Positions 3,905-40,111 of a stretch of DNA of 40,111 nucleotides are shown here, piece by piece (positions within the stretch are counted from its first letter, which is position 1; each line of letters begins with the position of its first letter). A program made the translations under genes and the position numbers. The notes under the pieces are model-generated. The model was not told the DNA's origin. It worked only from the letters and a program-made list of their open reading frames with translations, and searched no databases. This DNA is from Occultella glacieicola (GTDB lineage Bacteria > Actinomycetota > Actinomycetes > Actinomycetales > Beutenbergiaceae), in assembly GCF_004353825.1 (NCBI RefSeq), contig NZ_SMNA01000021.1:1-40111 (forward strand), in the 5' to 3' direction.

Positions 3905-6340
3905 TCAGAACGGGGCGCTCAGCCACCACACCCGGCGGATGTCGAGCCGGTCGCGGTCGGGCCACCACGCGGCCACCAGGTACTCGGTGCGGTCGGGGTT
4001 GGCGAACGTGGTGTAGAGGAAGCCGGGGTCGGTCACCCCGTCCTGGCTGCCGTACTCGTTGCCGGCCGGGTCGTCCGGGGCCGAGTCGTAGAACCATTCC
4101 TGGGTGTACCAGCCCTGGTTGGTGACGCCGTCGTCGGTGAACGCGGCGAGGGCGTCCGTCGAGGTGAAGTGCATCAGGGAGTAGACCAGGCCGTTCGGCT
4201 GGGTGCAGGTGATCACGGCGTCGACGGCGTCGGGCTGGTCGAGGTGTTCGGAGGGGCCGACGGCACAGTTCGAGTCGTTCGGACCGGTCAGGTTCGGTCC
4301 CTCGGGAACCAGGTTGGGGAACGGGGTGCGCATGAAGTCGGCATCGCCCCAGCTGCCGGGGTCCGGCGGTGCCTCGGCGACGACGGGGGTGCTCTCGTCC
4401 GAGGTCTCGCCCTCGGCGCCGACGGCGCGCACGGTGTACTCCTGGCCGGTGGGGGCGTCGTCGACGTACTCGCGCGCGGTGCCCTCGTAGAGCAGGTCGC
4501 CGTCCCGGTACAGCTCGTACCCGGTGGCGTCGGTGACCGAGCTCCAGTTCACCACCGTGTCGCCGTCGTCGTTCACCGTGACGGTCACGGTCTCGGGGGC
4601 CGCGAGGGTGTCGTCATCGCCGCCGCCGCCGAAGCCGCCGTTGGCGGCGATCACGATGAGCGCGATGATGGCGACCAGGGCCACCGCGAATCCCGTGATC
4701 ATGCCGGGGTTCGGTCCGCGGCGGATCGGGACCTTGTGCGCCGCGGTGTGGATACCGGTGTTCTGGGAGGACGGCGTCGCAGGTGCGGAGAGGTAGCTCG
4801 GCATGGCACCGGTGTTCTGCCGGTTCGGGCTCACCCCGGTCGGCATCGGGCCGGTGGGCATCGACCCGGTCGGCATGCCGACGGGACTCGGGACCGGTGG
4901 GGGCATCGACGAGGTGGGGTGCGGGCCGCTGTTGCCCCCGCCGCCCTGACCGATCGGGCCAATGGTGGCGTTCGGGGACCAGCTCCGGTTGCCGGGCGCG
5001 TTGTTGGCGCGCAGGTACGCGGCCGGGGCGGCGGCCGTGACGTGCCATGGTGAGATCCGGGCCAGCCGCGGTGCGATCTGGTCCAGCACCAGCGGGTGCC
5101 GGGAGCCCTGGTGCTCGTAGGCAACCGTCCAGGTCCGGTCGCCGGCACCGACGGTGATCTCCTCGAGGTAGTCACCGGTGATCTGCCGCTCCAGCGGCAG
5201 CCGGGGTGGCAGGTCGAAGAACCGGGCCTCGTGCAACAGCGCCTCGAGTGCCGTCCGGTCGGCCATCGGCACGTTCCGGGTGTCGACCGGGCCGACCTCC
5301 TGGCTCTGCCGGCCGTCGGCGAAGTAGCGGCGCACGGTCAGGGCGAACGGTGGCCGGGGGCCGGTGTGCGCCCGGCTCGGCGTCGGGGTCGGGTGCGGGC
5401 TGCCGGGCTGCCCGCCGGGGGCCGGGGTGCGGGTCGGCTGGGCGGGCTGCAACACGGTCGCGGTGTCGGCCTGTTCCGTCAGCGACTTGAGCGCGGCCGC
5501 CGCGGCGCGGCTGAGGGCACGGCAGCTCTGGTAGCGGTCCTCGGGCTTCTTGGCCATCGCCTTGGCGACCACGGCGTCGAAGCCGGTGCCGAGCCCGGGC
5601 CGTGCCTCGGACGGCTTCGGCGGCTCCTGGGTCAGGTGCGCCGTCATCTTCGCGAACGGCGAGTCGGCGACGAACGGGACGCTGCCGGTGAGCAGTTCGT
5701 AGAGCACGCAGCCGAGCGCGTAGACGTCCACCTGGTGGCCGAGCGTGCGGGCCTCGATCTGCTCGGGGGAGGCGTACGCGAGCGTGGCGAGCATGTTGCC
5801 GGTGCCGGTGAGGTTGTTGTCCCGGTCGTCGATGGCCTTGGCGATCCCGAAGTCGGTCAGCAGGACCTGATCCGGCTCCTCCGGGTCGTCGGGGTCCAGG
5901 CCGGGTGCGAGCAGGATGTTCGCCGGCTTGACGTCCCGGTGCAGCAGGCCGGCCCGGTGCGCGAAGTCGAGGCCGTTGCCGACCTCGGTGACGATGTGCA
6001 CGACCCGTGCCGGGTCGAGGCCGCCACCGGATTCCTGTACCGCGTGGGCGGCGTCGGTGCCCTCGACGTACTGCATCGCGATCCACAGCTGACCCTCGAA
6101 CTCGCCACGGTCGTAGACGGCGACGATGTTGCGGTGGAAGAGCTGGGCGGCGAGGTCCGCCTCACGTTCGAACCGGGTACGGAAGCTCTCGTCCGAGGAC
6201 AGGGACGTACTGAGCATCTTGAGTGCGTCCCGGCGCGGCAGTCTCGGGTGCTTGGCCAGGTACACCGAGCCCATGCCGCCACGCCCGAGTTCGCGCTCGA
6301 TCGTGTAGCCAGCGAAGACCTGGCCAGGCTCGAAACCCAC
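3905..6340 (-). CDS. PknB-like transmembrane Ser/Thr kinase with extracellular Fn3-like and sensor region
   Basis: 811 residues. The kinase domain (about 12-285) is complete: GRGGMGSVYL loop, Lys41, HRDVKPAN 134-141, DFG 163-165, SPE 191-193. A Pro/Thr linker follows, then a compact domain at about 330-430 that resembles the protealysin-inhibitor emfourin fold (RRYFADGR, ALEALLHEARFFDLP, a beta-rich tail). A second Pro/Met/Gly-rich linker leads to one membrane helix at 547-566. Outside the membrane lie a fibronectin-III-like module (about 580-650) and a C-terminal domain of ~150 residues of unknown fold. The GTG start at 6340 is preceded by AGGGGATGGAGCAGG. It lies downstream of pgl but has its own promoter candidate. 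The emfourin-like assignment is tentative. Confidence 0.87.
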   Translation of the reverse strand: MGFEPGQVFAGYTIERELGRGGMGSVYLAKHPRLPRRDALKMLSTSLSSDESFRTRFEREADLAAQLFHRNIVAVYDRGEFEGQLWIAMQYVEGTDAAHAVQESGGGLDPARVVHIVTEVGNGLDFAHRAGLLHRDVKPANILLAPGLDPDDPEEPDQVLLTDFGIAKAIDDRDNNLTGTGNMLATLAYASPEQIEARTLGHQVDVYALGCVLYELLTGSVPFVADSPFAKMTAHLTQEPPKPSEARPGLGTGFDAVVAKAMAKKPEDRYQSCRALSRAAAAALKSLTEQADTATVLQPAQPTRTPAPGGQPGSPHPTPTPSRAHTGPRPPFALTVRRYFADGRQSQEVGPVDTRNVPMADRTALEALLHEARFFDLPPRLPLERQITGDYLEEITVGAGDRTWTVAYEHQGSRHPLVLDQIAPRLARISPWHVTAAAPAAYLRANNAPGNRSWSPNATIGPIGQGGGGNSGPHPTSSMPPPVPSPVGMPTGSMPTGPMPTGVSPNRQNTGAMPSYLSAPATPSSQNTGIHTAAHKVPIRRGPNPGMITGFAVALVAIIALIVIAANGGFGGGGDDDTLAAPETVTVTVNDDGDTVVNWSSVTDATGYELYRDGDLLYEGTAREYVDDAPTGQEYTVRAVGAEGETSDESTPVVAEAPPDPGSWGDADFMRTPFPNLVPEGPNLTGPNDSNCAVGPSEHLDQPDAVDAVITCTQPNGLVYSLMHFTSTDALAAFTDDGVTNQGWYTQEWFYDSAPDDPAGNEYGSQDGVTDPGFLYTTFANPDRTEYLVAAWWPDRDRLDIRRVWWLSAPF

Positions 6341-6384
6341 CCTGCTCCATCCCCTTGAACGGTCGTGCGACGAATGCCCGGCTC

Positions 6385-6413
6385 ACCCTATCGGAGAGCG
6401 GGGCGGCAGTCAG
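6385..6413 (-). promoter_or_regulatory. Promoter candidate for the PknB-like kinase
   Basis: Reading the minus strand, a -35 box CTGACT (6413-6408) and a -10 box TAGGGT (6390-6385) are separated by exactly 17 bases. This would start transcription about 40 bases upstream of the GTG at 6340. The -35 box overlaps the pgl stop codon. Inferred from consensus match and spacing only. Confidence 0.45.
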
Positions 6414-7210
6414 ACGCGCGGGGCGTCGATCCCGGCCGCCGCGGTGTCCAGGAGCCAGAGGGTCACGTCCCGCCCACGCACGGCGCCGGCCGGCGCCTCG
6501 CGCACGTCGGCGGCACCGCCGAGGGCGCGGCGGACCGCCTCGGCCTTCTCCGCGCCGGCGACCACGAGCCAGACCTGGCGGGCGCCCGCGAGTGCCTCGA
6601 ACGTCAACGAGATCCGGTCCGGTGGGGGCTTGGGCGAGTCGTGCACGGCGACGGCGGTGGTCCCGGTGGCGGCCAGCGCGGGGTGGCCGGGGAACAGCGA
6701 AGCGACGTGGGCGTCGGGGCCCATGCCGAGCAGGACCACGTCGAACGTTGGCGACCGCTCGTCGTCGGGGCCGGCGGCGGCGGCCAGCTCGGTGGCGTAC
6801 GCGGCGGCGCCGTCCTCCGCGGTCGCGGCGTCCTCGGTCGCGGCCATCGGGTGCACGTTGCGCGCCGGGATCGGCAGGTGGTCGATCAGGGCCGCACGTG
6901 CCTGGCCCTCGTTGCGCTCGGAGTCCGCGCGCGGCACGAACCGCTCGTCGCCCCACCACAGGTGCACCCCGGTCCAGTCCACGATGGCGGCCAGCGGCGA
7001 GTGCCGGGCCCGCTCGAGCAGGCGGATCCCGACGGTGCCTCCGGTGAGCGCCACGTGCACCGGGTGACGCACGGCCTGGGCGTCGAGGATCGCCAGGAGC
7101 AGCCGAGCCGCGGTCGCCTCGGCGAGCGCCGCAGCGTCGGGGTGCACGACGACGGCGCGCTCGGGTCCGTGCTGGTGGGCCGAACTGCGCACCTCCGGCT
7201 CCCGGGTCAC
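6410..7210 (-). CDS. pgl: 6-phosphogluconolactonase
   Basis: 266 residues, the usual length for DevB/Pgl-type 6-phosphogluconolactonase, which hydrolyses 6-phosphogluconolactone in the oxidative pentose phosphate pathway. Motifs seen are HVALTGGTVG near the N-terminus, WTGVHLWWGDERFVP, and DVVLLGMGPDAHVASLFPGH, which carries the family's GxGxDGHxASLFPG signature with Ala in place of the second Gly. The GTG start overlaps the opcA stop (GTGA at 7207-7210), so translation is probably coupled. The frame is open further upstream, but that part is the antisense/alternate frame of opcA and does not look like protein. Context (zwf, opcA) confirms the function. Confidence 0.93.
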   Translation of the reverse strand: MTREPEVRSSAHQHGPERAVVVHPDAAALAEATAARLLLAILDAQAVRHPVHVALTGGTVGIRLLERARHSPLAAIVDWTGVHLWWGDERFVPRADSERNEGQARAALIDHLPIPARNVHPMAATEDAATAEDGAAAYATELAAAAGPDDERSPTFDVVLLGMGPDAHVASLFPGHPALAATGTTAVAVHDSPKPPPDRISLTFEALAGARQVWLVVAGAEKAEAVRRALGGAADVREAPAGAVRGRDVTLWLLDTAAAGIDAPRV

Positions 7211-8130
7211 TCCGCGGCCACCTTCGGCAGGCCCTTGACGAGGGTGCGTGCGTAGACCTCGTCCGGGTCCAGTCGGCGCAGGTCCTCCATCAGGCAGTCG
7301 GCGATCGGGCGCTTGGCCATCGCGATCTGCTGATCGGGGCGCCCGGCCTGGGTGACGGTCACGACCGCGCTGCCCTCGGGGCGTCGCATCGAGATGGAGC
7401 TGGTCCGTCGCTCCAGGTCGAGCCCGGTGATCGCGGTGGCGCCCGGGTCGTGCTCGATCGTCACCGGAGCCTTCAGGCTCGACGCGAGCCAGGCCGCGAA
7501 CAGATGCGTGGACGGGCGGTCCTGGCTGCCCAGCACGCGCACCGACCGCACCGGCTCGAACGGCGGTTCGTCCAACGAGGCCGCGGCCAGTCCGCGCCAC
7601 AGGGTGGTGCGGGCCCAGGACAGGTCCGTGTCGCCCGGGGCGTAGGTGTCGGCCAGGCCGGCGAGTTCCTCGATCGGCGTGTCGCAGGTCCCCACGTCGC
7701 TGATCCGGCGCTGTGCCATGGCGCCGAGCGGGTCGGCGGACATGTTCTCCGGCGGGTCGTGCGGCCACCACACCACGATCGGTGCGTCCGGGAGCAGCAG
7801 CGGGACCACGAGGGTGTCCACCGTGTGGCGGGCATCGCCGAGCGGGCGCAGCAGGACGACGTCGCTCGCCCCGGCGTCGCCGCCGACCCGGATCTCGGCG
7901 TCCAGGCCCGCGGAGTCGCCGTCGTCGCCCGGGTCGACCACGATCACCCGGCACGGGTGCTCCCGGCTGGCGTCGTTGGCGGCCGCGACGGCCGCCTCCA
8001 CGGAGTCACCGGTCGCGACGATGACGAGGGTCAGCACCCGCCCGAGGGCCACGGCTCCACCCTCCTCGCGCAGCTCCACGAGCTTCGCGCCGATGGCCGA
8101 ACTGGTGGTGTTCTCGAGGCTGATGATCAT
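7207..8130 (-). CDS. opcA: Glucose-6-phosphate dehydrogenase assembly protein OpcA
   Basis: 307 residues. OpcA is an actinobacterial and cyanobacterial factor needed for assembly or activation of Zwf. The characteristic middle section is visible: DTLVVPLLLPDAPIVVWWP followed by GAMAQRRISD and DLSWARTTLWRG. ATG 8130 is chosen over the earlier in-frame GTG at 8142 because GGAGG lies 5 bases upstream and it gives an ATGA overlap with the zwf stop. It lies between zwf and pgl with overlaps on both sides, the standard actinobacterial arrangement. Confidence 0.93.
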   Translation of the reverse strand: MIISLENTTSSAIGAKLVELREEGGAVALGRVLTLVIVATGDSVEAAVAAANDASREHPCRVIVVDPGDDGDSAGLDAEIRVGGDAGASDVVLLRPLGDARHTVDTLVVPLLLPDAPIVVWWPHDPPENMSADPLGAMAQRRISDVGTCDTPIEELAGLADTYAPGDTDLSWARTTLWRGLAAASLDEPPFEPVRSVRVLGSQDRPSTHLFAAWLASSLKAPVTIEHDPGATAITGLDLERRTSSISMRRPEGSAVVTVTQAGRPDQQIAMAKRPIADCLMEDLRRLDPDEVYARTLVKGLPKVAAE

Positions 8131-9668
8131 GGTCGCCTCCACGTGCGTCCGTCGCGGGCCAGCATGGCGTCGGCCGAGGGCGGCCCCCAGGTGCCCGGGC
8201 GGTACGGCTCGGGCTTCCCGTGCTTGGTCCAGTGGTCGATGATCGGGTCGAGGATCTGCCAGGAGAGCTCGACCTCCCGCTGGCGCGGGAACAGCGGCGG
8301 GTCACCGAGGAGCATGTCCAGGATGAGCCGCTCGTAGGCCTCGGGGGAGGACTCGGTGAAGGCGTGCCCGTAGCCGAAGTCCATGGTGACGTCCCGGACC
8401 TCCATGGCGGTCCCGGGCACCTTCGAACCGAACCGGATGGTCACGCCCTCGTCGGGCTGCACCCGGATCACGATGGCGTTCTGACCGAGCTCCTGGGTCT
8501 CGTTCAGGTCGAACGGCAGGTGCGGCGCCCGCTTGAACACGATCGCGATCTCGGTGACCCGGCGGCCGAGGCGCTTGCCGGCGCGCAGGTAGAACGGCAC
8601 CCCGGCCCAGCGCCGGGTGTCGACGTCGAGGCGGATGGCGGCGTAGGTCTCGGTGATCGAGCCCGCGCTCATGCCCTGCTCCTGGAGATAGCCGACGACC
8701 TCCTCGCCGCCCTGCCAGCCCGCCTCGTACTGGCCGCGGGCGGTATGGCGGCCGATGTCGCGTGGGATGGTGACGGCGGAGAGCACCTTCTCCTTCTCGG
8801 CGCGGAGCTCGTCGGCCTCGAAGGAGACCGGCTCCTCCATGGCGGTCAACGCGAGCAGCTGCAGCAGGTGGTTCTGGATGACGTCGCGGGCCGCGCCGAT
8901 GCCGTCGTAGTAGCCGGCGCGGGAGCCGATCCCGATGTCCTCGGCCATCGTGATCTGGACGTGGTCGACGTAGTTGGCGTTCCAGATCGGTTCGAACATC
9001 TGGTTCGCGAACCGCAGCGCGAGGAGGTTCTGCACCGTCTCCTTGCCGAGGTAGTGGTCGATGCGGAACACCGACTCCGGCGGGAAGACCTCCTCCACCA
9101 CGTCGTTCAGCTCGCGGGCGCTGGTGAGGTCGTGACCGAAGGGCTTCTCCACGACGACCCGGCGCCAGGTGTCTGCGGCCGGGGTGGACAGGCCCACCTT
9201 CGCGAGTTGCTCGAGGACCAGCGGGAACTGTCCCGGCGGCACGGACAGGTAGAAGGCGTGATTGCCACCGGTGCCGCGTTCGTCGTCGAGGCGTTGCACC
9301 GTCTGCGCCAGCCGCTCGAAGGCGGAGTCGTCGGAGAACTCGCCGGACACGAACCGGAAGCCCTTGGATAACTGTTCCCAGACCCCTTCGTCGAACGGGG
9401 TCCGGGAGTGCTTCTCGATCGCATCGTGCGCGATCTTGCGGAAGTCCTGGTCCTGCCAGTCCCGCCGCGCGAACCCGGTGAGACCGAACGCGGGGGGTAG
9501 CAGCCCGCGGTTCGCCAGGTCGTAGACCGCCGGCAGCAGCTTCTTCTGCGCCAGGTCGCCGGTGACGCCGAAGATCACCAGGCCGCTGGGCCCGGCGATC
9601 TTCGGCAGCCGCCGGTCGGATGGATCACGGAGCGGGTTCTGTCCGTTCGTCACCTTCGCCGGTGCCAT
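8127..9668 (-). CDS. zwf: Glucose-6-phosphate 1-dehydrogenase
   Basis: 513 residues, full length. It oxidises glucose 6-phosphate to 6-phosphogluconolactone with NADP+, the entry step of the oxidative pentose phosphate pathway. The nucleotide-binding motif VIFGVTGDLAQKKLLPA lies at about 31-47, the active-site signature RIDHYLGKE at about 205, and FYLRAGKRL around 365. The stop overlaps opcA (ATGA). The ATG at 9668 is preceded by GAAGGG at a long spacing of about 12 bases; a GTG five codons later is an alternative start. It is 40 bases downstream of tal, so it is probably cotranscribed. Confidence 0.95.
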   Translation of the reverse strand: MAPAKVTNGQNPLRDPSDRRLPKIAGPSGLVIFGVTGDLAQKKLLPAVYDLANRGLLPPAFGLTGFARRDWQDQDFRKIAHDAIEKHSRTPFDEGVWEQLSKGFRFVSGEFSDDSAFERLAQTVQRLDDERGTGGNHAFYLSVPPGQFPLVLEQLAKVGLSTPAADTWRRVVVEKPFGHDLTSARELNDVVEEVFPPESVFRIDHYLGKETVQNLLALRFANQMFEPIWNANYVDHVQITMAEDIGIGSRAGYYDGIGAARDVIQNHLLQLLALTAMEEPVSFEADELRAEKEKVLSAVTIPRDIGRHTARGQYEAGWQGGEEVVGYLQEQGMSAGSITETYAAIRLDVDTRRWAGVPFYLRAGKRLGRRVTEIAIVFKRAPHLPFDLNETQELGQNAIVIRVQPDEGVTIRFGSKVPGTAMEVRDVTMDFGYGHAFTESSPEAYERLILDMLLGDPPLFPRQREVELSWQILDPIIDHWTKHGKPEPYRPGTWGPPSADAMLARDGRTWRRP

Positions 9669-17138: not shown

Positions 17139-18416
17139 TCAGAAGAACGTGCGAACGAGCCCGACGGCGACGGAGTCGGGCGTGAGCCGACCGTCGACCT
17201 CGACGATGTCGCGCCACTTGTCGAACGTCGTGCACGGGTGGGAGATGCCGAGCACCACGCGGTCTCCGACCTCAGGCGTCGCCCCGAACGTCGACGCCGG
17301 CACGAAGGCGTGCTGATCGTTCACCGCCGCCACCGGCGCCGGATCGAGCGCTGCCTGGGCCGCCCTGCCGGTACGCCAGAGCTCGAGGGGGACCGGCAGC
17401 CCCTGATCGTGTCCGGCGTCGCGCCGGCCGGTGTCGAGAAGTGCCACACCGCCGTCGTGGACCGCGAGCACGGTGGCCACGAGGCGCAGCGCGGACCGGA
17501 ATCGTGGTGCGTTCGGTGGGGCGCCGTCCTGGGCCCGGCGGTAGTGCCCGTCGTCGTGGGCGATGCTCACGCCCGAGCGCACGATCACCCGGCCGTCCGC
17601 GCCGGTCAGGTCCGACAGTCCGTCGGTGACCTCGCCGAGATGGTCGCTCCCGGCGATGCTGAGGTATGCGTCCGGCCCGGCCGCGGGGAGCGCGACCTCC
17701 CGGTGCACGTGCAGCACGTGCGCGGCGAACGCGCCGATCTCGGCGCGGCTCGGATCGCCACCGATCGCACCCTCGTAGGCGGCGGAGCCCGCGAGCCGGA
17801 CGCCCGGGGTAGCCCGGATCCGGGCGGCCACGACGCCCGCCTCGTCGAGGTCCCGCACGCCGGTGCGTCCACCGGGACGGCCGATGTCCAGCAGGACCGG
17901 GAGCTCCGGTCCGGACGGATCGGCGAGGGCCGCCACGGCCGCCTCGCTGTCGACCCATGACAGGATCTCCCGGTGCGGGTCGGTGCGCAGTGCCGCCCGG
18001 GCGCGTCCGGCGCCGGCCCCGGTCGCGAGCGGGTTCGCCAGCTGGATGCGCCGCACTCCGAAGGCGAGCGCGACGTTCAGCTGCGCGAGGGTCGCGACGG
18101 TGATGCCCCAGGCGCCGGCCGCCAGCTGCCGCGACCACAGCTGAGGCGCCATGGTGGTCTTCCCGTGCGGTGCCAGCAGGTAACCGCGCTCGTCACACCA
18201 GCGCTGCAGAGCCGCGATGTTGTCGGCGACGGCGGAGGCGTCGATCGTCAGGTACGGCGTCGTGAGGGCCGCGACCGGTGCCCGGGTCGACGCCAGGGTG
18301 CTGCGAGCGAGGCCGTCGAACCCGGGTCCGAGGACCTTGCCCAACGGTTCCGCCGGTAGCCCGCCGAGTTCGGACATGTCGAGCGCCTCGGCTCGGTCGG
18401 GATCCGTCTGGCTCAC
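17139..18416 (-). CDS. D-serine dehydratase-like / D-threonine aldolase-family PLP enzyme
   Basis: 425 residues. The N-terminal alanine-racemase-like barrel carries the PLP lysine in LLAPHGKTTMAPQLW (Lys86), and the C-terminal beta domain has the metal-binding pair HxxxP-Cys in GISHPCTTFDKW plus NDQHAFV. This combination is characteristic of fold-III PLP enzymes of the DSD1/D-threonine aldolase group, often annotated as amino acid deaminase. Likely reaction: deamination or cleavage of a D-amino acid such as D-serine. The GTG at 18416 has GAGGG just upstream. It stands alone, 89 bases upstream of the MerR gene on the same strand. Confidence 0.85.
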   Translation of the reverse strand: MSQTDPDRAEALDMSELGGLPAEPLGKVLGPGFDGLARSTLASTRAPVAALTTPYLTIDASAVADNIAALQRWCDERGYLLAPHGKTTMAPQLWSRQLAAGAWGITVATLAQLNVALAFGVRRIQLANPLATGAGAGRARAALRTDPHREILSWVDSEAAVAALADPSGPELPVLLDIGRPGGRTGVRDLDEAGVVAARIRATPGVRLAGSAAYEGAIGGDPSRAEIGAFAAHVLHVHREVALPAAGPDAYLSIAGSDHLGEVTDGLSDLTGADGRVIVRSGVSIAHDDGHYRRAQDGAPPNAPRFRSALRLVATVLAVHDGGVALLDTGRRDAGHDQGLPVPLELWRTGRAAQAALDPAPVAAVNDQHAFVPASTFGATPEVGDRVVLGISHPCTTFDKWRDIVEVDGRLTPDSVAVGLVRTFF

Positions 18417-27757: not shown

Positions 27758-29308
27758 GTGAACTCCGAGCAGAACGACCCGTCCGCCCCTGCCGTCGACG
27801 TGCCCGTCGACGCCCTCGACGAGGCCGCGGCCGACGAGCGGGACGAACGCTACGACGTCGCCGACAGCTCCGACGACGTCCAGCGCGCCGAGGCACTGCG
27901 CGCCGGCCTGTCCGAGTACGAGTTGGACGAGGCCGACCTGTCCCTGCTCCAGCAGGGCGAGGGCGACGGCGTCGGCTCCGGTGCGGAGGGGCCGCTGCCG
28001 GTGCTCGCGGTCATCGGGCGCCCGAACGTGGGCAAGTCGACCCTGGTGAACCGGATCCTCGGGCGTCGGGAGGCCGTGGTCCAGGACACACCGGGCGTCA
28101 CCCGGGACCGGGTCAGTTACCCGGCCGAGTGGGCGGGCCGGAACTTCACCCTGGTGGACACCGGCGGCTGGGAGCGGGACGTCAAGGGCCTCGCCTCCCG
28201 GGTCGCCGACCAGGCCGAGATCGCGATCGCGCTCGCGGACGCGGTGCTGTTCGTTGTCGACGCCACGGTCGGTCCGACGGACACTGACTCCTACGTCGTG
28301 AACCTGCTCCGCCGCGCGAACAAGCCCACCATCCTGGTCGCGAACAAGGTGGACGACCAGCGCGGCGAGGCGGACGCGGCAATGCTGTGGTCGCTGGGCC
28401 TCGGGGAGCCGTTCGCGGTCTCCGCGCTGCACGGACGCGGCTCGGGCGACCTGCTGGACGCGGCCCTGGCGCTGCTGCCCGAGGTCTCCACGGTCGGCAC
28501 CCGGATCCCGGAGGGCGGTCCGCGCCGGGTGGCCCTGGTCGGTCGCCCGAACGTGGGCAAGTCCTCGCTGCTGAACTCGATCACCCGCTCGGACCGGGTG
28601 GTCGTGGACAGCGTCGCCGGGACCACCCGCGACCCCGTCGACGAGCTGGTCACGCTGGGGGAGCGGGCCTGGTGGTTCGTGGACACGGCCGGTATCCGGC
28701 GCCGCGTGCACCAGACCTCCGGGGCGGACTTCTACGCCTCCCTGCGCACCCAGAGCGCGCTGGAGAAGGCGGAGGTCGCCGTCGTCCTCATCGACGCGAG
28801 CACGCCGATGACCGAACAGGACGTGCGCGTGGTCCAGCAGGTCATCGACGCCGGCCGGGCCCTCGTGATCGCCTACAACAAGTGGGACCTGATGGACGAA
28901 GACCGACGACCGTTCCTCGAGCGCGAGATCGAGCAGCAGCTGGTCCAGGTGCCGTGGGCGCCCCGGGTGAACTTCTCAGCGAAGACCCGCTGGCACGTGG
29001 ACCGGCTCACCCGGGCCCTGGACACGGCCCTCGCGTCCTGGGACACCCGGATCCCGACCGGGAGGCTGAACGCGTTCCTCGGCGAGCTGACCGCGGCCCA
29101 TCCGCACCCGGTCCGTGGGGGCAAGCAGCCCCGGATCCTGTTCGCGACCCAGGCGAGCACCCGCCCGCCGCGGTTCGTGGTGTTCGCCACCGGATTCCTC
29201 GACCCCGCCTACCGTCGGTTCATCGAGCGCCGGCTCCGGGAGACGTTCGGGTTCGAGGGCACCCCGATCGAGATCAGCGTGCGGGTCCGCGAGAAGCGGA
29301 AGCGGTAG
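27758..29308 (+). CDS. der: GTPase Der (EngA), double-G-domain ribosome assembly factor
   Basis: 516 residues. Two tandem GTPase domains are seen: G1 motifs [12 protein letters not shown] and [13 protein letters not shown]3 DTGG and DTAG, G4 NKVD and NKWD. The C-terminal KH-like domain ends in [12 protein letters not shown]. Der is needed for 50S subunit maturation. The first ~75 residues are an acidic actinobacterial extension. The GTG start has no good ribosome site; an ACAATA box (27747-27752) just upstream suggests a leaderless start. Confidence 0.95.
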
Positions 29309-35038: not shown

Positions 35039-35112
35039 CGGGCTGTGGCGCAGCTTGGTAGCGCACCTGACTGGGGGTCAGGGGGTCGCAGGTTCAAATC
35101 CTGTCAGCCCGA
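35039..35112 (+). tRNA. tRNA-Pro (anticodon GGG)
   Basis: A full cloverleaf can be drawn: acceptor CGGGCTG pairs with CAGCCCG, D-arm GCGC/GCGC, anticodon stem CCTGA/TCAGG with loop CTGGGGG (anticodon GGG at 35073-35075), and T-arm with GGTTCAAATCC. The discriminator is A (35112). CCA is not fully encoded (ACCG follows). It marks the left border of the island that follows. Confidence 0.95.
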
Positions 35113-35119
35113 CCGAGAG

Positions 35120-35152
35120 GTCCCGGAAACTCAAGGGTTTCCGGGACTTTTT
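35120..35152 (+). terminator. Intrinsic terminator of tRNA-Pro
   Basis: GTCCCGGAAAC (35120-35130) pairs perfectly with GTTTCCGGGAC (35137-35147) across a 6-base loop, followed directly by TTTTT. A textbook intrinsic terminator. Confidence 0.9.
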
Positions 35153-35187
35153 CTGTAGGTGGATGTGATCCGGTCATCGAAAACCCA

Positions 35188-35682
35188 TCACTTTGACGCC
35201 CTCGCGGCCCGCTCGGGCCGCCGCGCTCCGGTGGACGTCTCGTCTTGCCGGTTGCTCCCGGTTCGTGGGTGGGAGCGGTCGATGCCCTCGGTGCTGGATA
35301 TCAGACGCGCGCCGGATGCGCGGATTGCCTGAGTGATCGCAACGTCGTCTGCCCGCGATCGTGCTAGGCGGTCGAGCTTGTGCACGATGACGTAGTCGAC
35401 CTGATGTTCCCTCAGGTACGCGAGCATCTGTTGGAGTCCCGGGCAGTTGGTGTTGCGCCCCGACTGGCCGCGGTCCACGAACTCGGCCGCCACGAGCGCC
35501 CCCAACCCGTATGCTTGACGTTGGTTCGCGTCTCGCTGGGCCGGGATGGAGAAGCCGTCTCGTGCACCTCCGCGATCTGCCTGACGAGCAGTAGAGACGC
35601 GGATATACGAAACCGCCGACCTCAGCGGGGACGGGTCAAGGACAGAAGTGGCAGCTTGAAGGAGATCGCGGGCTTTGTTCAT
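35188..35682 (-). pseudogene. Truncated serine recombinase (resolvase/invertase catalytic domain only)
   Basis: 164 residues. The N-terminal resolvase domain is clear: SYIRVSTARQ with the nucleophile Ser, GFSIPAQRDANQ, VAAEFVDRGQSGRNT, and VIVHKLDRLARSRADDVAI. After SSTEGID the sequence leaves the family and ends within 35 residues. The recombinase and zinc-ribbon domains of large serine recombinases, or the HTH of small ones, are missing. There is no ribosome site before the ATG at 35682. It is probably the remnant of an integrase that brought in the island, or a mini-gene with no activity. Confidence 0.75.
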
Positions 35683-35952
35683 TCAGCCAACAGTGGCCGA
35701 CGTGCCGGACGACATGAGATCGACACCGGTACCAGATGTCCGCGGAATCCAGCGGGTTGCGCGTACCGCCGCATCCTGTCCGTCTTGAAGAAGGAAGTCG
35801 GGGGCCGCCGGTTTCTGCACCTGGCGAGCAACGGAGACGCTGCGGCTCGGTTCTCTCCGGGCTTTCCAGCAGACTGTATTGAAATGTATCTTGTAGTGTC
35901 GGCTGGCAGACGGTGTGTCTTGGTGAATTGGCTGCGCGGATAGGGATTTGTT
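35683..35952. other. Intergenic region upstream of the hamA-like gene
   Basis: 270 bases between the recombinase remnant and the nuclease gene, with noticeably lower GC toward 35870-35950. It must hold the promoter of the nuclease-helicase operon, but I see no convincing -35/-10 pair. A plus-strand open frame through it shows no recognisable protein. Confidence 0.4.
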
Positions 35953-36765
35953 GTGCTGGAGCTAGAGCTCGATTTCGAGGCCCTCGGGGAGGTCTTCTCG
36001 ACGACCCAGAGTGCGCCGTTTGCGGTGATCGAGATTGAGGTGGAGCAGGCTGCGACGTTCGCGGATCGTCTGGGCGTTCCGGTGCGGCGGTGCTACATCT
36101 CTGATCCGAGTCTGCAGGCCCGAATCGCGGAGACGTCGGTGTCTGCTCGCACGATCGTTGGGTCGAAGCTTCCAGGTCGTGGATCGACGATGGCGGGTGA
36201 CTTCGGTGAGATCCTTACGGCGCTGTTCCATGCTGCGAGCGAGCATCCCGGGGTCGTTCTGGACCCGAAGAAGTGGCGGTTGAAACAGGATCGCACGAAG
36301 CCTGCTCCCGGTTCTGATGTGGTGCAGATGATCCTTCCGCAGTGGCCAGCGGCGTCGGCAGATGATCGGATCATCTGTGCTGAGGTGAAGACGAAGTCCA
36401 CCAGCGGTACGTCGACGCCCATCGCCAGTGCGATCGCGGACTCGGAGAAGGACAGCTCACGACGGTTCGTGAAGACGCTGAACTGGCTCAAAGAACGAGC
36501 GATCGACACGGGGCTGTCAACTATCTCGATCGAGCAGCTGGACAGATTCATCCACCCTGTAGACCACCCGGAGGCGACACGGGAGTTCCGCGCGGTGGCA
36601 GTTATCTGCGCGAGCCTGGTCGCCGACGAGTTGATCGGTGTGGTCCCCCCTCCTCCTAGCGAGCGGGCGTTGATCGTGATCTCGGTCCCTGACTTGAAGG
36701 AGACCTACGAGCGGGTCTTCGACGCCGCGCTGTTGACCGCAGAAGACGTCGAGGATGTCGCGTGA
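35953..36765 (+). CDS. hamA: HamA-like (DUF1837-type) PD-(D/E)XK nuclease, Hachiman defence
   Basis: 270 residues. A PD-(D/E)XK core can be read in order: Glu86 in GDFGEILTALF, Lys/Arg-rich KKWRLKQDRTK, Asp122 in PAPGSDVVQM, and Glu144-x-Lys146 in ICAEVKTKS. This GEIL...GSDxV...ExK layout is that of HamA, the effector nuclease of Hachiman. The N-terminal 75 residues are a separate small domain. GTG 35953 is the first possible start after an in-frame TAG at 35941. The stop overlaps the helicase start (GTGA), so the two are coupled. Other nuclease-helicase pairs such as AbpAB are related and cannot be excluded. Codon usage is less GC-rich than in core genes. Confidence 0.72.
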   Translation: MLELELDFEALGEVFSTTQSAPFAVIEIEVEQAATFADRLGVPVRRCYISDPSLQARIAETSVSARTIVGSKLPGRGSTMAGDFGEILTALFHAASEHPGVVLDPKKWRLKQDRTKPAPGSDVVQMILPQWPAASADDRIICAEVKTKSTSGTSTPIASAIADSEKDSSRRFVKTLNWLKERAIDTGLSTISIEQLDRFIHPVDHPEATREFRAVAVICASLVADELIGVVPPPPSERALIVISVPDLKETYERVFDAALLTAEDVEDVA

Positions 36766-39728
36766 GAGAAAACTTGGGTCGGTGGATCGCAGATGCGGAG
36801 ACACAGCAGACGATTGTGGACTTCCGGTTGTCGGCCCACCTGGGACAACTTGAATACCTCGACAATCGCACGACGGACCTGTACTACTCTCTGGTCGGCG
36901 AGCTGTTCGACATGGTGCGTGCCGGGGGCGGGGAGCCGCTGGATTGGGCATCGCTCGGTCGTGCACTTGAGACGGTGAGCCGGGATCTGCGGGACGGTGC
37001 TCGTGCGGATGCGTTGTTCTTTGCGGCGGTTGCGTTCTATCAGGGCGGCTATCCTGCCTCGGCGGTGATGACGATGCGACTCGCCGATCCGCAGTTCTGG
37101 GAGGTCGATGCCCAGCGGGCGGCGTACGAGCTCCTCACTCGGTCTGCGAATCCTGTTTCTTTCTCGACGCAGGTGCTGGTCGACGCGGTCCGAGCCGGGA
37201 ACACGAGCATTGTCGACGAGGTGGTTGTCGCCGCGCAGGAGGAAGCGGGTCGCGCGCTGGATGTTGGTCCTGACGAGTGGGTCGCCCATCGCCTGTATGC
37301 GGTTCTGGTTGAGCGCTTCCAACGCACGAACCTTCGCGCGGTTCTCCCCGACGGGGCGACGCGGCGGTGGGATCCTCTGGTGGAGTCGTTCCTAGACCGC
37401 ACGCAGCCGGTGTGGGACTTCTTCCCGTCGCAGATGGAAGCCATCGATGCGGGACTGCTGACGAGTTCTGAGTCCTACTCATTGCAGATGCCGACGGGAG
37501 CAGGCAAGACCGCGCTGACAGAGACGCTCATCTTCGACCATCTGAGCCGCTTCCCAGAGAGCAAGGCGGTGCTGTTGGTTCCGTACCGGGCGTTGGCCCG
37601 TGAGCTGCGCGGCAGTGTCGGCCGGCACCTGACGGCAATGGGGTTACGGTCGCGGACGGTGTACGGCGGAACGGTTCCGGGGATCGAGGAGAGCGACGAT
37701 CTGGAAGAGGTCCGCGTCATCATCGCCACGCCGGAAGCCTTGACGGGGCTCGTCGGCGCTCACCCGGAATTGCTGTCGGAGATCTCGCTGGTCGTCTGTG
37801 ATGAAGGGCACCTTCTCGACAGCGAGTCTCGCGGAGTGGGGCTGGAGCTGCTGCTGGCACGGCTGAAGGCGCGAACCCCGGCCCCGCGGATCGTGTTCGT
37901 GTCAGCGATCGTCCCCAACGTGGAAGAGATCAACACTTGGCTGGGCGGCTCCGACGGTACGGTGGTGCGCAGTGAGTATCGGCCAGCGGTGGCGGAGTTC
38001 GCGGTGCTGCGCCCTTCTGGTTCGGGTCGACAACGCAAGGTCGGACTGGAGCTGCACGAGCCGTCCACCTCGTTACCGTCGCACACATTGCCGGAGTTCC
38101 TGGGCCTGGAGGATTTTCAGTTCACGAACCCGTCGACGGGGCGGCTGAACACCTACGACTACGGTTCCACGAAGACCTTGGCGGTGGCCACAGCACGGAA
38201 GGCGCTGACGTTGGGTCCGGTTGCTGTGTTCGCGACGGAGAAGGGCGGCAACCGGGGCGTTCTGGGCCTTGCCAACGAGCTCCTCAAGCAGATCGCAGCA
38301 GGTCTCGACCTGCCGAAGCCGATGGCTTATGTGACGGACGACGCGGCCGTCGAATCAGCGGTGGCGTATCTGACCGGAGAGTTCGGCGACGACTGGGTGG
38401 GAACGCGGGCACTCCGCGAGGGCGCGATCATTCACCACGGCGACGTGCCACAGGAGACCCGCGAGGTTCTCGAGGAGCTGGTTTCGGACCGGCGTATACC
38501 TATGGTGTTGTGCACGAGCACGTTGGCGGAGGGCGTGAATCTGCCGTTGCGGACGATGGTTCTCTACTCCGTGAAGCGCAGCTCCGACGGAAGCGCACCC
38601 GAGGCAATGCTCGCCCGCGACATCAAGAATCTGGTCGGTCGAGCAGGGCGGGCGGGAAGCTCGACACGCGGGCTGGTGGTCTGCGCGAACCCCGATGACT
38701 GGGCGGTCGTCAGCCCTGTCGCAGAAGGACAGCCCGGTGAACCGGTTGCGGGAGCGTTGATCACCTTGGTACAGAGGTTGGAAGGCGCGCTCGCGCGCCA
38801 GCAACTGCAACTCACCAATCGGGTGCTGGAAGCGAGCCCAGTGCTGTTCTCCCTCGTCGACGGGGTTGATGCGGCGCTAATCGAGCTGATTCGAGACGAG
38901 CTGGGTGCGGAGCAGTTCGTCAGCATCGCCGAAACGCTCGCCGCGGAGACCTTCGCTGCGGCACGGGCCACGGAGCAGGAACGGCAGATGCTGTTCAGTG
39001 TGTTCGAGCTCCGCGCGCAACGCCTTGTCGAGATGCGGGCGTCCGGGCGCCTCTCGCTGGCGCAGGAGACGTCGGCACGACCTCGTCTGGTCGACGCAGT
39101 GCTCGATGGGCTCCTGCCCCGGTATACGGACTGGGAGAGCATTGAGTCACCACTGAACCCTAACCTGGTGCGCCTCGTTGTCGACTGGGCACTCGAGCAG
39201 CCCGGGTTCACCCGGGAAGCGGAGACCGTGTACCGGCGGACGGACGTAACCGACCTCGCTGCATCCCTGTCTGAGCTACTGCTGGCCTGGCTAGAGGGGC
39301 TGCCGTTCACAGCGCTCGCAGCACGCGCAGGAGTCAGCATTGACATGCTGCTGCGCATCCACGCCAAGCTTGTCTTGTTCGACTTGGTGACCCTGGTAGA
39401 GCAAGCAGTGGCCATCCTCCAGCAGCACCTGACGTCGGAGGGCGTCGCTCTCGCCCCAGCGGTCACCTCGTTCCCCGACTTCCTGCGGTTCGGTGTCTCC
39501 ACCGCGGCTGCTCGTGAACTGATGGCCAAGGGTGTCCGACACCGGGCCGCTGCAGTGAAACTTGGCGCGCACTCGGCGATGAGCTCGCCCGGGAACCTCC
39601 TTTCGCTTTCAACCCCGTGGACGATCGCCCGGGACCTTCTCGCGGACACTGACACATGGCTTCCTCGCCTGGGTGATCTGGTCTACCAGCGCACCGTTGC
39701 GGACGTGGCAATCAGGAGGCTCATCTAG
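36762..39728 (+). CDS. hamB: HamB-like Ski2-type superfamily 2 helicase, Hachiman defence
   Basis: 988 residues. Helicase motifs in order: Walker A PTGAGKT 244-250, Ia VPYRALARE, Ib ATPEAL 322-327, DEGH 347-350, SAI 381-383, IV-like HHGDVP near 558, V CTSTLAEGVNLP 584-595, VI NLVGRAGRAG 623-632. Motifs V and VI are Ski2-like, as in HamB. About 220 helical residues precede the motor and ~340 follow it, with no recognised catalytic domain. In Hachiman, HamB is a DNA-damage-sensing helicase that holds HamA in check and releases its nuclease. GTG start within the hamA stop. Confidence 0.78.
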   Translation: MRENLGRWIADAETQQTIVDFRLSAHLGQLEYLDNRTTDLYYSLVGELFDMVRAGGGEPLDWASLGRALETVSRDLRDGARADALFFAAVAFYQGGYPASAVMTMRLADPQFWEVDAQRAAYELLTRSANPVSFSTQVLVDAVRAGNTSIVDEVVVAAQEEAGRALDVGPDEWVAHRLYAVLVERFQRTNLRAVLPDGATRRWDPLVESFLDRTQPVWDFFPSQMEAIDAGLLTSSESYSLQMPTGAGKTALTETLIFDHLSRFPESKAVLLVPYRALARELRGSVGRHLTAMGLRSRTVYGGTVPGIEESDDLEEVRVIIATPEALTGLVGAHPELLSEISLVVCDEGHLLDSESRGVGLELLLARLKARTPAPRIVFVSAIVPNVEEINTWLGGSDGTVVRSEYRPAVAEFAVLRPSGSGRQRKVGLELHEPSTSLPSHTLPEFLGLEDFQFTNPSTGRLNTYDYGSTKTLAVATARKALTLGPVAVFATEKGGNRGVLGLANELLKQIAAGLDLPKPMAYVTDDAAVESAVAYLTGEFGDDWVGTRALREGAIIHHGDVPQETREVLEELVSDRRIPMVLCTSTLAEGVNLPLRTMVLYSVKRSSDGSAPEAMLARDIKNLVGRAGRAGSSTRGLVVCANPDDWAVVSPVAEGQPGEPVAGALITLVQRLEGALARQQLQLTNRVLEASPVLFSLVDGVDAALIELIRDELGAEQFVSIAETLAAETFAAARATEQERQMLFSVFELRAQRLVEMRASGRLSLAQETSARPRLVDAVLDGLLPRYTDWESIESPLNPNLVRLVVDWALEQPGFTREAETVYRRTDVTDLAASLSELLLAWLEGLPFTALAARAGVSIDMLLRIHAKLVLFDLVTLVEQAVAILQQHLTSEGVALAPAVTSFPDFLRFGVSTAAARELMAKGVRHRAAAVKLGAHSAMSSPGNLLSLSTPWTIARDLLADTDTWLPRLGDLVYQRTVADVAIRRLI

Positions 39729-39884
39729 CGGTACTTCTTTCGGAGCTGAAACCCTCCGTCTAGCAACTGTATGGACGCGCACGTGCTCTGAAGCCAACCT
39801 GCTTCTGGAATGATGGCCGTGACTGCTCCGGCCACCAGCTGATCTTTCTCGGAGCGTCGCGATACGTCTGGGCGTCGCCTCAAT

Positions 39885-39999
<115 letters not shown>

Positions 40000-40012
<13 letters not shown>

Positions 40013-40111
40013 TGACAGTTCCTAGTCACGCCGCCAGGGCGACGTTGTTGGTCATGATGGTCTCGAATTCGATAGGCGTCAATCGACCGAGCCGGGCCTG
40101 GCGGCGTCGAC
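40000..40111 (-). mobile_element. IS3-family insertion sequence, one end (runs off window)
   Basis: The terminal part of an IS3-family element, recognised by the OrfB C-terminus at 40026-40111. The element's end must lie between the methyltransferase remnant and the transposase stop, roughly 39995-40013; TGCTGCACGAGAAGG or TGACAGTTCC is a possible terminus. The exact boundary needs the other inverted repeat, which is outside the window. Confidence 0.55.
40026..40111 (-). CDS. IS3-family transposase OrfB, C-terminus (partial)
   Basis: The minus-strand frame entering from the right edge reads RRRQARLGRLTPIEFETI, then MTNNVALAA and TGA at 40028-40026. The (R)RxHxxLGxLTPxEFE pattern is the standard end of IS3-family DDE transposases (OrfB, integrase core). 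Here Gln stands where relatives usually have His. Only the last ~28 residues lie in the window. Confidence 0.8.
   Translation of the reverse strand, partial: RRRQARLGRLTPIEFETIMTNNVALAA

Follow-up and report, generated by a model that had tools for sequence, protein, structure and literature searches.

According to a study of the Escherichia coli Hachiman system (PMC12278908), HamB is a sensor of DNA that has free 3' ends; through its ATPase activity it activates HamA, which clears all cellular DNA. We analyzed a gene pair of this type, hamA and hamB, near the end of a 40,111-nucleotide stretch from the actinomycete Occultella glacieicola (NCBI RefSeq assembly GCF_004353825.1, contig NZ_SMNA01000021.1, positions 1 to 40,111 of the forward strand; hereafter the window). 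The two genes very probably make up a complete Hachiman system for phage defence, of the HamA1/HamB1 kind, carried as cargo by a small integrative island at a tRNA-Pro gene and recently acquired by horizontal transfer. The HamA1/HamB1 kind is also called type I Hachiman; the system found here is of an already known kind and not new.

The hamA-hamB pair

The gene hamA (35953-36765, plus strand, GTG start) encodes a predicted PD-(D/E)XK effector nuclease of 270 residues with E86, D122, E144 and K146. It is followed on the same strand by hamB (36762-39728, GTG start), which encodes a predicted Ski2/Hel308-like sensor helicase of 988 residues; the start of hamB overlaps the stop of hamA by 4 bp (GTGA). 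The original prediction, made from the letters of the sequence, had given the same frames, overlap and nuclease residues, and its assignment of the pair to Hachiman, with nuclease and helicase roles, is backed by profiles, predicted structures and relatives.

The profile search it had proposed, against HamA/DUF1837 and HamB, identifies both proteins. HamA matches the PADLOC HamA1 profile PDLC00160 with an E-value of 5e-91 and 302.6 bits (profile positions 2-260 of 264), and HamB matches the HamB1 profile PDLC00194 with an E-value of 0 and 1022.6 bits (positions 1-993 of 995); the next-best PADLOC profiles lie far below, at 89.4 bits for HamA and 241.8 bits for HamB. An assignment of HamB to PDC-M23B was rejected (169.7 bits against 1022.6 for HamB1). 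In Pfam, the nuclease belongs to the HamA family (38.5 bits, cut-off 25), and the helicase contains the domains DEAD and Helicase_C. A single-sequence search of the PDB with HamA gave no match; a profile of 35 HamA sequences, searched at E-values up to 1, found two HamA chains and nothing else. The single-sequence search with HamB found the HamB chain 8vx9_B (7.7e-33), although SLH1 and ASCC3 ranked higher. The pair had been called divergent, a description that is not supported, as both proteins closely match this 2023 PADLOC profile pair.

The catalytic and helicase motifs are intact. E86, D122, E144 and K146 are invariant in all 35 aligned HamA sequences, the window included, and all 32 aligned HamB sequences share K249 and D347-E348-G349-H350. 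Compared with three Microbacterium homologs (L004-L006), the ratio of non-synonymous to synonymous substitution rates (dN/dS) is 0.13-0.18 for hamA and 0.11-0.16 for hamB, at synonymous distances of 0.84-1.38, which are near or at saturation. The closer comparison with Microbacterium algeriense (locus L002) gives 0.42 for hamA and 0.32 for hamB, values that stem from few changes (9 and 30, respectively). Judged by these substitution patterns, purifying selection seems to act on hamA as well as hamB.

The predicted folds of both proteins match those of E. coli HamA and HamB, with 14% identity for HamA and 17% for HamB in the structural alignments. In the profile search of the PDB, HamA position 144 is aligned to E138 of 8vx9_A (E. 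coli HamA). The nuclease N-terminus and the helicase C-terminal region, described earlier as not recognizable by eye, are thus predicted to fold like the matching parts of the E. coli proteins. In the HamB model, residues 3-211 are helical. Among the 50 matches listed for a structural search with this model, three start at residue 1, all of them HamB, three start at 59-60, and the others at 181 or later. The N-terminal helical bundle is therefore present in the model, and a role in HamA binding is predicted for it.

If the E. coli mechanism applies to the window pair, HamB would scan DNA and would bind HamA via the N-terminal helical bundle, holding the nuclease off. A free 3' end or another sign of damaged or phage DNA would engage the helicase, ATP hydrolysis would activate HamA, and active HamA would degrade phage and host DNA, resulting in abortive infection. 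We infer complex formation, trigger, DNA degradation and phage defence for the pair by this analogy.

Relatives and phylogeny

A scan of genome contigs for relatives yielded 37 loci. HamB sequence occurs in 35 of them, in some as a mere piece (L003, L032, L033, L024); the other two (L035, L038) have none, and their HamA is likewise partial. In 18 of the 37 loci the two frames overlap by exactly 4 bp. The HamA alignment comprises the window and 34 loci (L033, L035 and L038 were omitted as partial), the HamB alignment the window and 31 loci (L003, L024, L032, L033, L035 and L038 omitted). Profiles PDLC00160 and PDLC00194 match every aligned member, 35 of 35 HamA and 32 of 32 HamB, at E-values up to 0.001, a threshold that does not establish which profile fits each member best. 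The aligned sequences come from Actinomycetota, Pseudomonadota, Planctomycetota and one metagenome-assembled genome (MAG) of Nitrospinota.

The phylogeny is based on 32 joined HamA-HamB rows and was inferred with a quick method, with SH-aLRT (Shimodaira-Hasegawa-like approximate likelihood ratio test) as the only support measure and a midpoint root. In this tree the window and M. algeriense are sister rows within a starred branch of seven, in which every labelled member belongs to Microbacteriaceae. Of the nine rows labelled as Actinomycetota, eight fall, with the window, into a wider starred branch; the ninth, an actinobacterial MAG (L015), is placed among Ectothiorhodospiraceae and Halomonadaceae. 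The distribution of Pseudomonadota requires four changes on the tree. Because of these placements, the family is not confined to Actinomycetota.

This bears on the earlier suggestion that the pair might represent a distinct actinobacterial subtype of Hachiman, with a mechanism of its own. The shared branch of eight actinobacterial rows speaks for it, as do the wide gap to the next-best PADLOC scores, which sets the family well apart from other Hachiman groups, and the HamB model, shorter than its E. coli counterpart and devoid of predicted C-terminal strands. However, the same profile pair matches all aligned members, Pseudomonadota, Planctomycetota and the Nitrospinota MAG among them, L015 lies outside the actinobacterial branch, and the catalytic and helicase motifs are unaltered; we therefore regard such a subtype as very unlikely.

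A less restrictive proposal concerns the HamB C-terminus, for which an OB-like barrel is described in E. coli ECOR31, a feature not known to define the family: the model has no strand after residue 641, and the part of 8vx9_B after residue 1093 is unpartnered in the alignment. We raise tentatively, as unlikely, that the sequences matching PDLC00160 and PDLC00194 form a compact cross-phylum Hachiman branch in which HamB has no C-terminal barrel, either through loss or from the outset. Such a branch may then differ from the studied E. coli system in how it senses or holds DNA. A compact HamB would be a possible test case for whether this barrel is needed.

Several kilobases at most separate HamAB of some relatives from the following neighbors. 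L006 has an AbiH protein and an AAA ATPase; in Pseudoclavibacter (L008:14051-17429) the neighbor is a TOPRIM ATPase of the OLD-like kind, and beyond it lies a tRNA-Pro (GGG) that is 95% identical to the window tRNA-Pro over 81 bp. No second attachment repeat was found within the available stretch of L008. TrwC relaxases or an integrase occur in L006 and L007. Such neighbors, taken from a profiling of nine hand-picked genes in five of the 37 loci, are commonly seen around mobile defence systems. No conserved third partner emerged: when neighboring open reading frames of at least 100 residues were clustered around the 37 loci, some of which are short contigs, no family occurred in more than five loci. 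In Azohydromonas lata (L022:7709-10849), one frame runs from a NAD-dependent DNA ligase (LigA domains to BRCT) into HamA without a stop; HamAB at this 3' end of ligA reflects either a fusion or an insertion.

We rejected an origin from phages, since the 50,697 phage records contain no match and viral contigs a single distant relative (40%), and likewise an origin from plasmids, where 2 of 72,556 records contain a HamA relative (at best 47.5%). Among the open PMC papers searched, none was found that links Hachiman with Microbacterium; in a paper on the arsenal of Actinobacteria (PMC10482375), the word Hachiman is absent from the main text.

The tRNA-Pro island

The island is integrated at a tRNA-Pro (GGG) gene predicted by ARAGORN (35039-35114, plus strand), whose 3' 35 bp constitute the left attachment repeat (35079-35113). 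The right repeat is found on another contig of the same genome (C20, 475188-475222), with 97% identity over 35 bp and 32 bp exact; it is identical to the tRNA end of L002 and located exactly at the point where the M. algeriense island ceases to be homologous. Two of the three available congeners (G002, G003) align continuously across the joined flanks and represent the empty site. The third (G001) contains another insert of about 4.5 kb at the same tRNA-Pro site, between two repeat copies (L066, C68:107000-112200).

Between window positions 35273-39993 and L002, identity amounts to 98.45% across 4722 bp; the remainder of the island on C20 is 97.5% identical over 3581 bp, including a helicase gene of 1008 residues, while the chromosomal stretch to the left (28123-29304) is 72% identical. 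Furthermore, HamA occurs in only one of 24 genomes of the host's taxonomic family, that of the window. The near-identity of the islands, the lower identity of the flank and this isolated occurrence point to recent horizontal transfer, as judged from sequence comparison. The GC content is 63.5% over 35114-39993 and 72.5% over about 25-35 kb. The 1008-residue ResIII/DEAD helicase (L048:5447-8473, L002:14362-17388) has weak matches to named defence helicases, and distant long relatives on plasmids (26-28% among the matches listed).

A serine recombinase remnant (35188-35682, minus strand) retains the N-terminal resolvase domain (Pfam Resolvase, E-value 5.6e-24); the gene in L002 encodes 525 residues, and the longer relative carries both Resolvase and Recombinase domains. 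Homology to L002 breaks at 35273-35276. The window has no counterpart of L002 positions 6171-9321, where a tyrosine integrase and the greater part of the serine recombinase are encoded. Because only the start of the recombinase is retained, this stretch was more probably deleted from the window copy than inserted in L002. The window copy of the island is probably immobile by itself.

An insertion sequence begins 264 bp after hamB; it was recognized by comparing the window end, the C20 end and the uninterrupted L002. Its first 119 bp (39993-40111), with 14-bp inverted ends and a target duplication CAG (39990-39992), form the end of the window, and contigs C13, C1 and C20 all end within it. The minus-strand peptide at this end (40030-40111) resembles a transposase C-terminus, presumably of the IS3 type. 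The insertion sequence cuts off a remnant open reading frame (39609-39944, minus strand), which may be the beginning of a type III DNA methyltransferase. Neither this piece nor its longer counterpart matches a Pfam family at E-values up to 1; for the remnant we further found no PADLOC family, no plasmid match at an E-value of 0.01 and no type III match in NCBIfam. Within the frame, a short tandem GACCTT repeat (39890-39940) encodes a VK run and is one unit shorter in L002. Thus, the original prediction described the island context correctly as to the tRNA, the broken recombinase and the insertion sequence, and profiles and relatives support it; its methyltransferase remnant is only weakly borne out, by a type III profile match of the uninterrupted L002 counterpart (E-value 0.0042 over 34 residues).

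The missing integrase, the truncated recombinase and the nearby insertion sequence could also suggest that the island is dying and its Hachiman system decayed and no longer working. However, neither gene is truncated or lacks a motif, their dN/dS values are below 1 in each comparison, and the observed losses affect mobility genes; we give decay little credence. What the locus documents, in our reading of a transferred Hachiman island, is a system that a small tRNA-Pro element has moved from one actinobacterial genus to another, with a near-identical copy, both repeats and empty sites visible.

Comparison with described systems

Two other described arrangements were considered. HamMAB combines a protease fused to HamA with an upstream nuclease of the metallo-beta-lactamase (MBL) fold and a lost HamA motif, according to PMC12799240; it was rejected for the window, where the 270-residue HamA contains the Pfam HamA domain alone, its motif is intact, and the upstream profiled frame is the recombinase remnant on the opposite strand. 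A variant of the AbpAB type, which likewise combines a HamA-like domain with a Ski2-like helicase but relies on an added N-terminal nuclease, the HamA-like part of AbpA being described as catalytically inactive in PMC12278908, is the least likely alternative, since the short window HamA has no such extra domain and retains intact D-ExK residues, which are invariant in the alignment, and PADLOC ranks HamA1/HamB1 first.

Compared with the M. algeriense G1 island, the Hachiman pair shares the tRNA-Pro site, the near-identical DNA and the downstream 1008-residue helicase gene. The M. algeriense copy retains the tyrosine integrase and the full serine recombinase, both absent in the window copy; it lacks the insertion sequence at this place, and after position 17611 it runs into other sequence where the window genome has the right repeat. 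No second attachment repeat was found in the 20.8 kb available for L002, with up to four mismatches allowed. HamAB of E. coli ECOR31 (PDB 8vx9, 8vxa, 8vxy; Tuck et al. 2024, PMC12278908) differs in the length of its helicase, with 1174 residues in chain 8vx9_B compared to 988 in the window HamB. From PDLC00160 and PDLC00194, which the window pair matches nearly end to end, the profiles show no difference, and the case leaves the picture of how Hachiman works unchanged.
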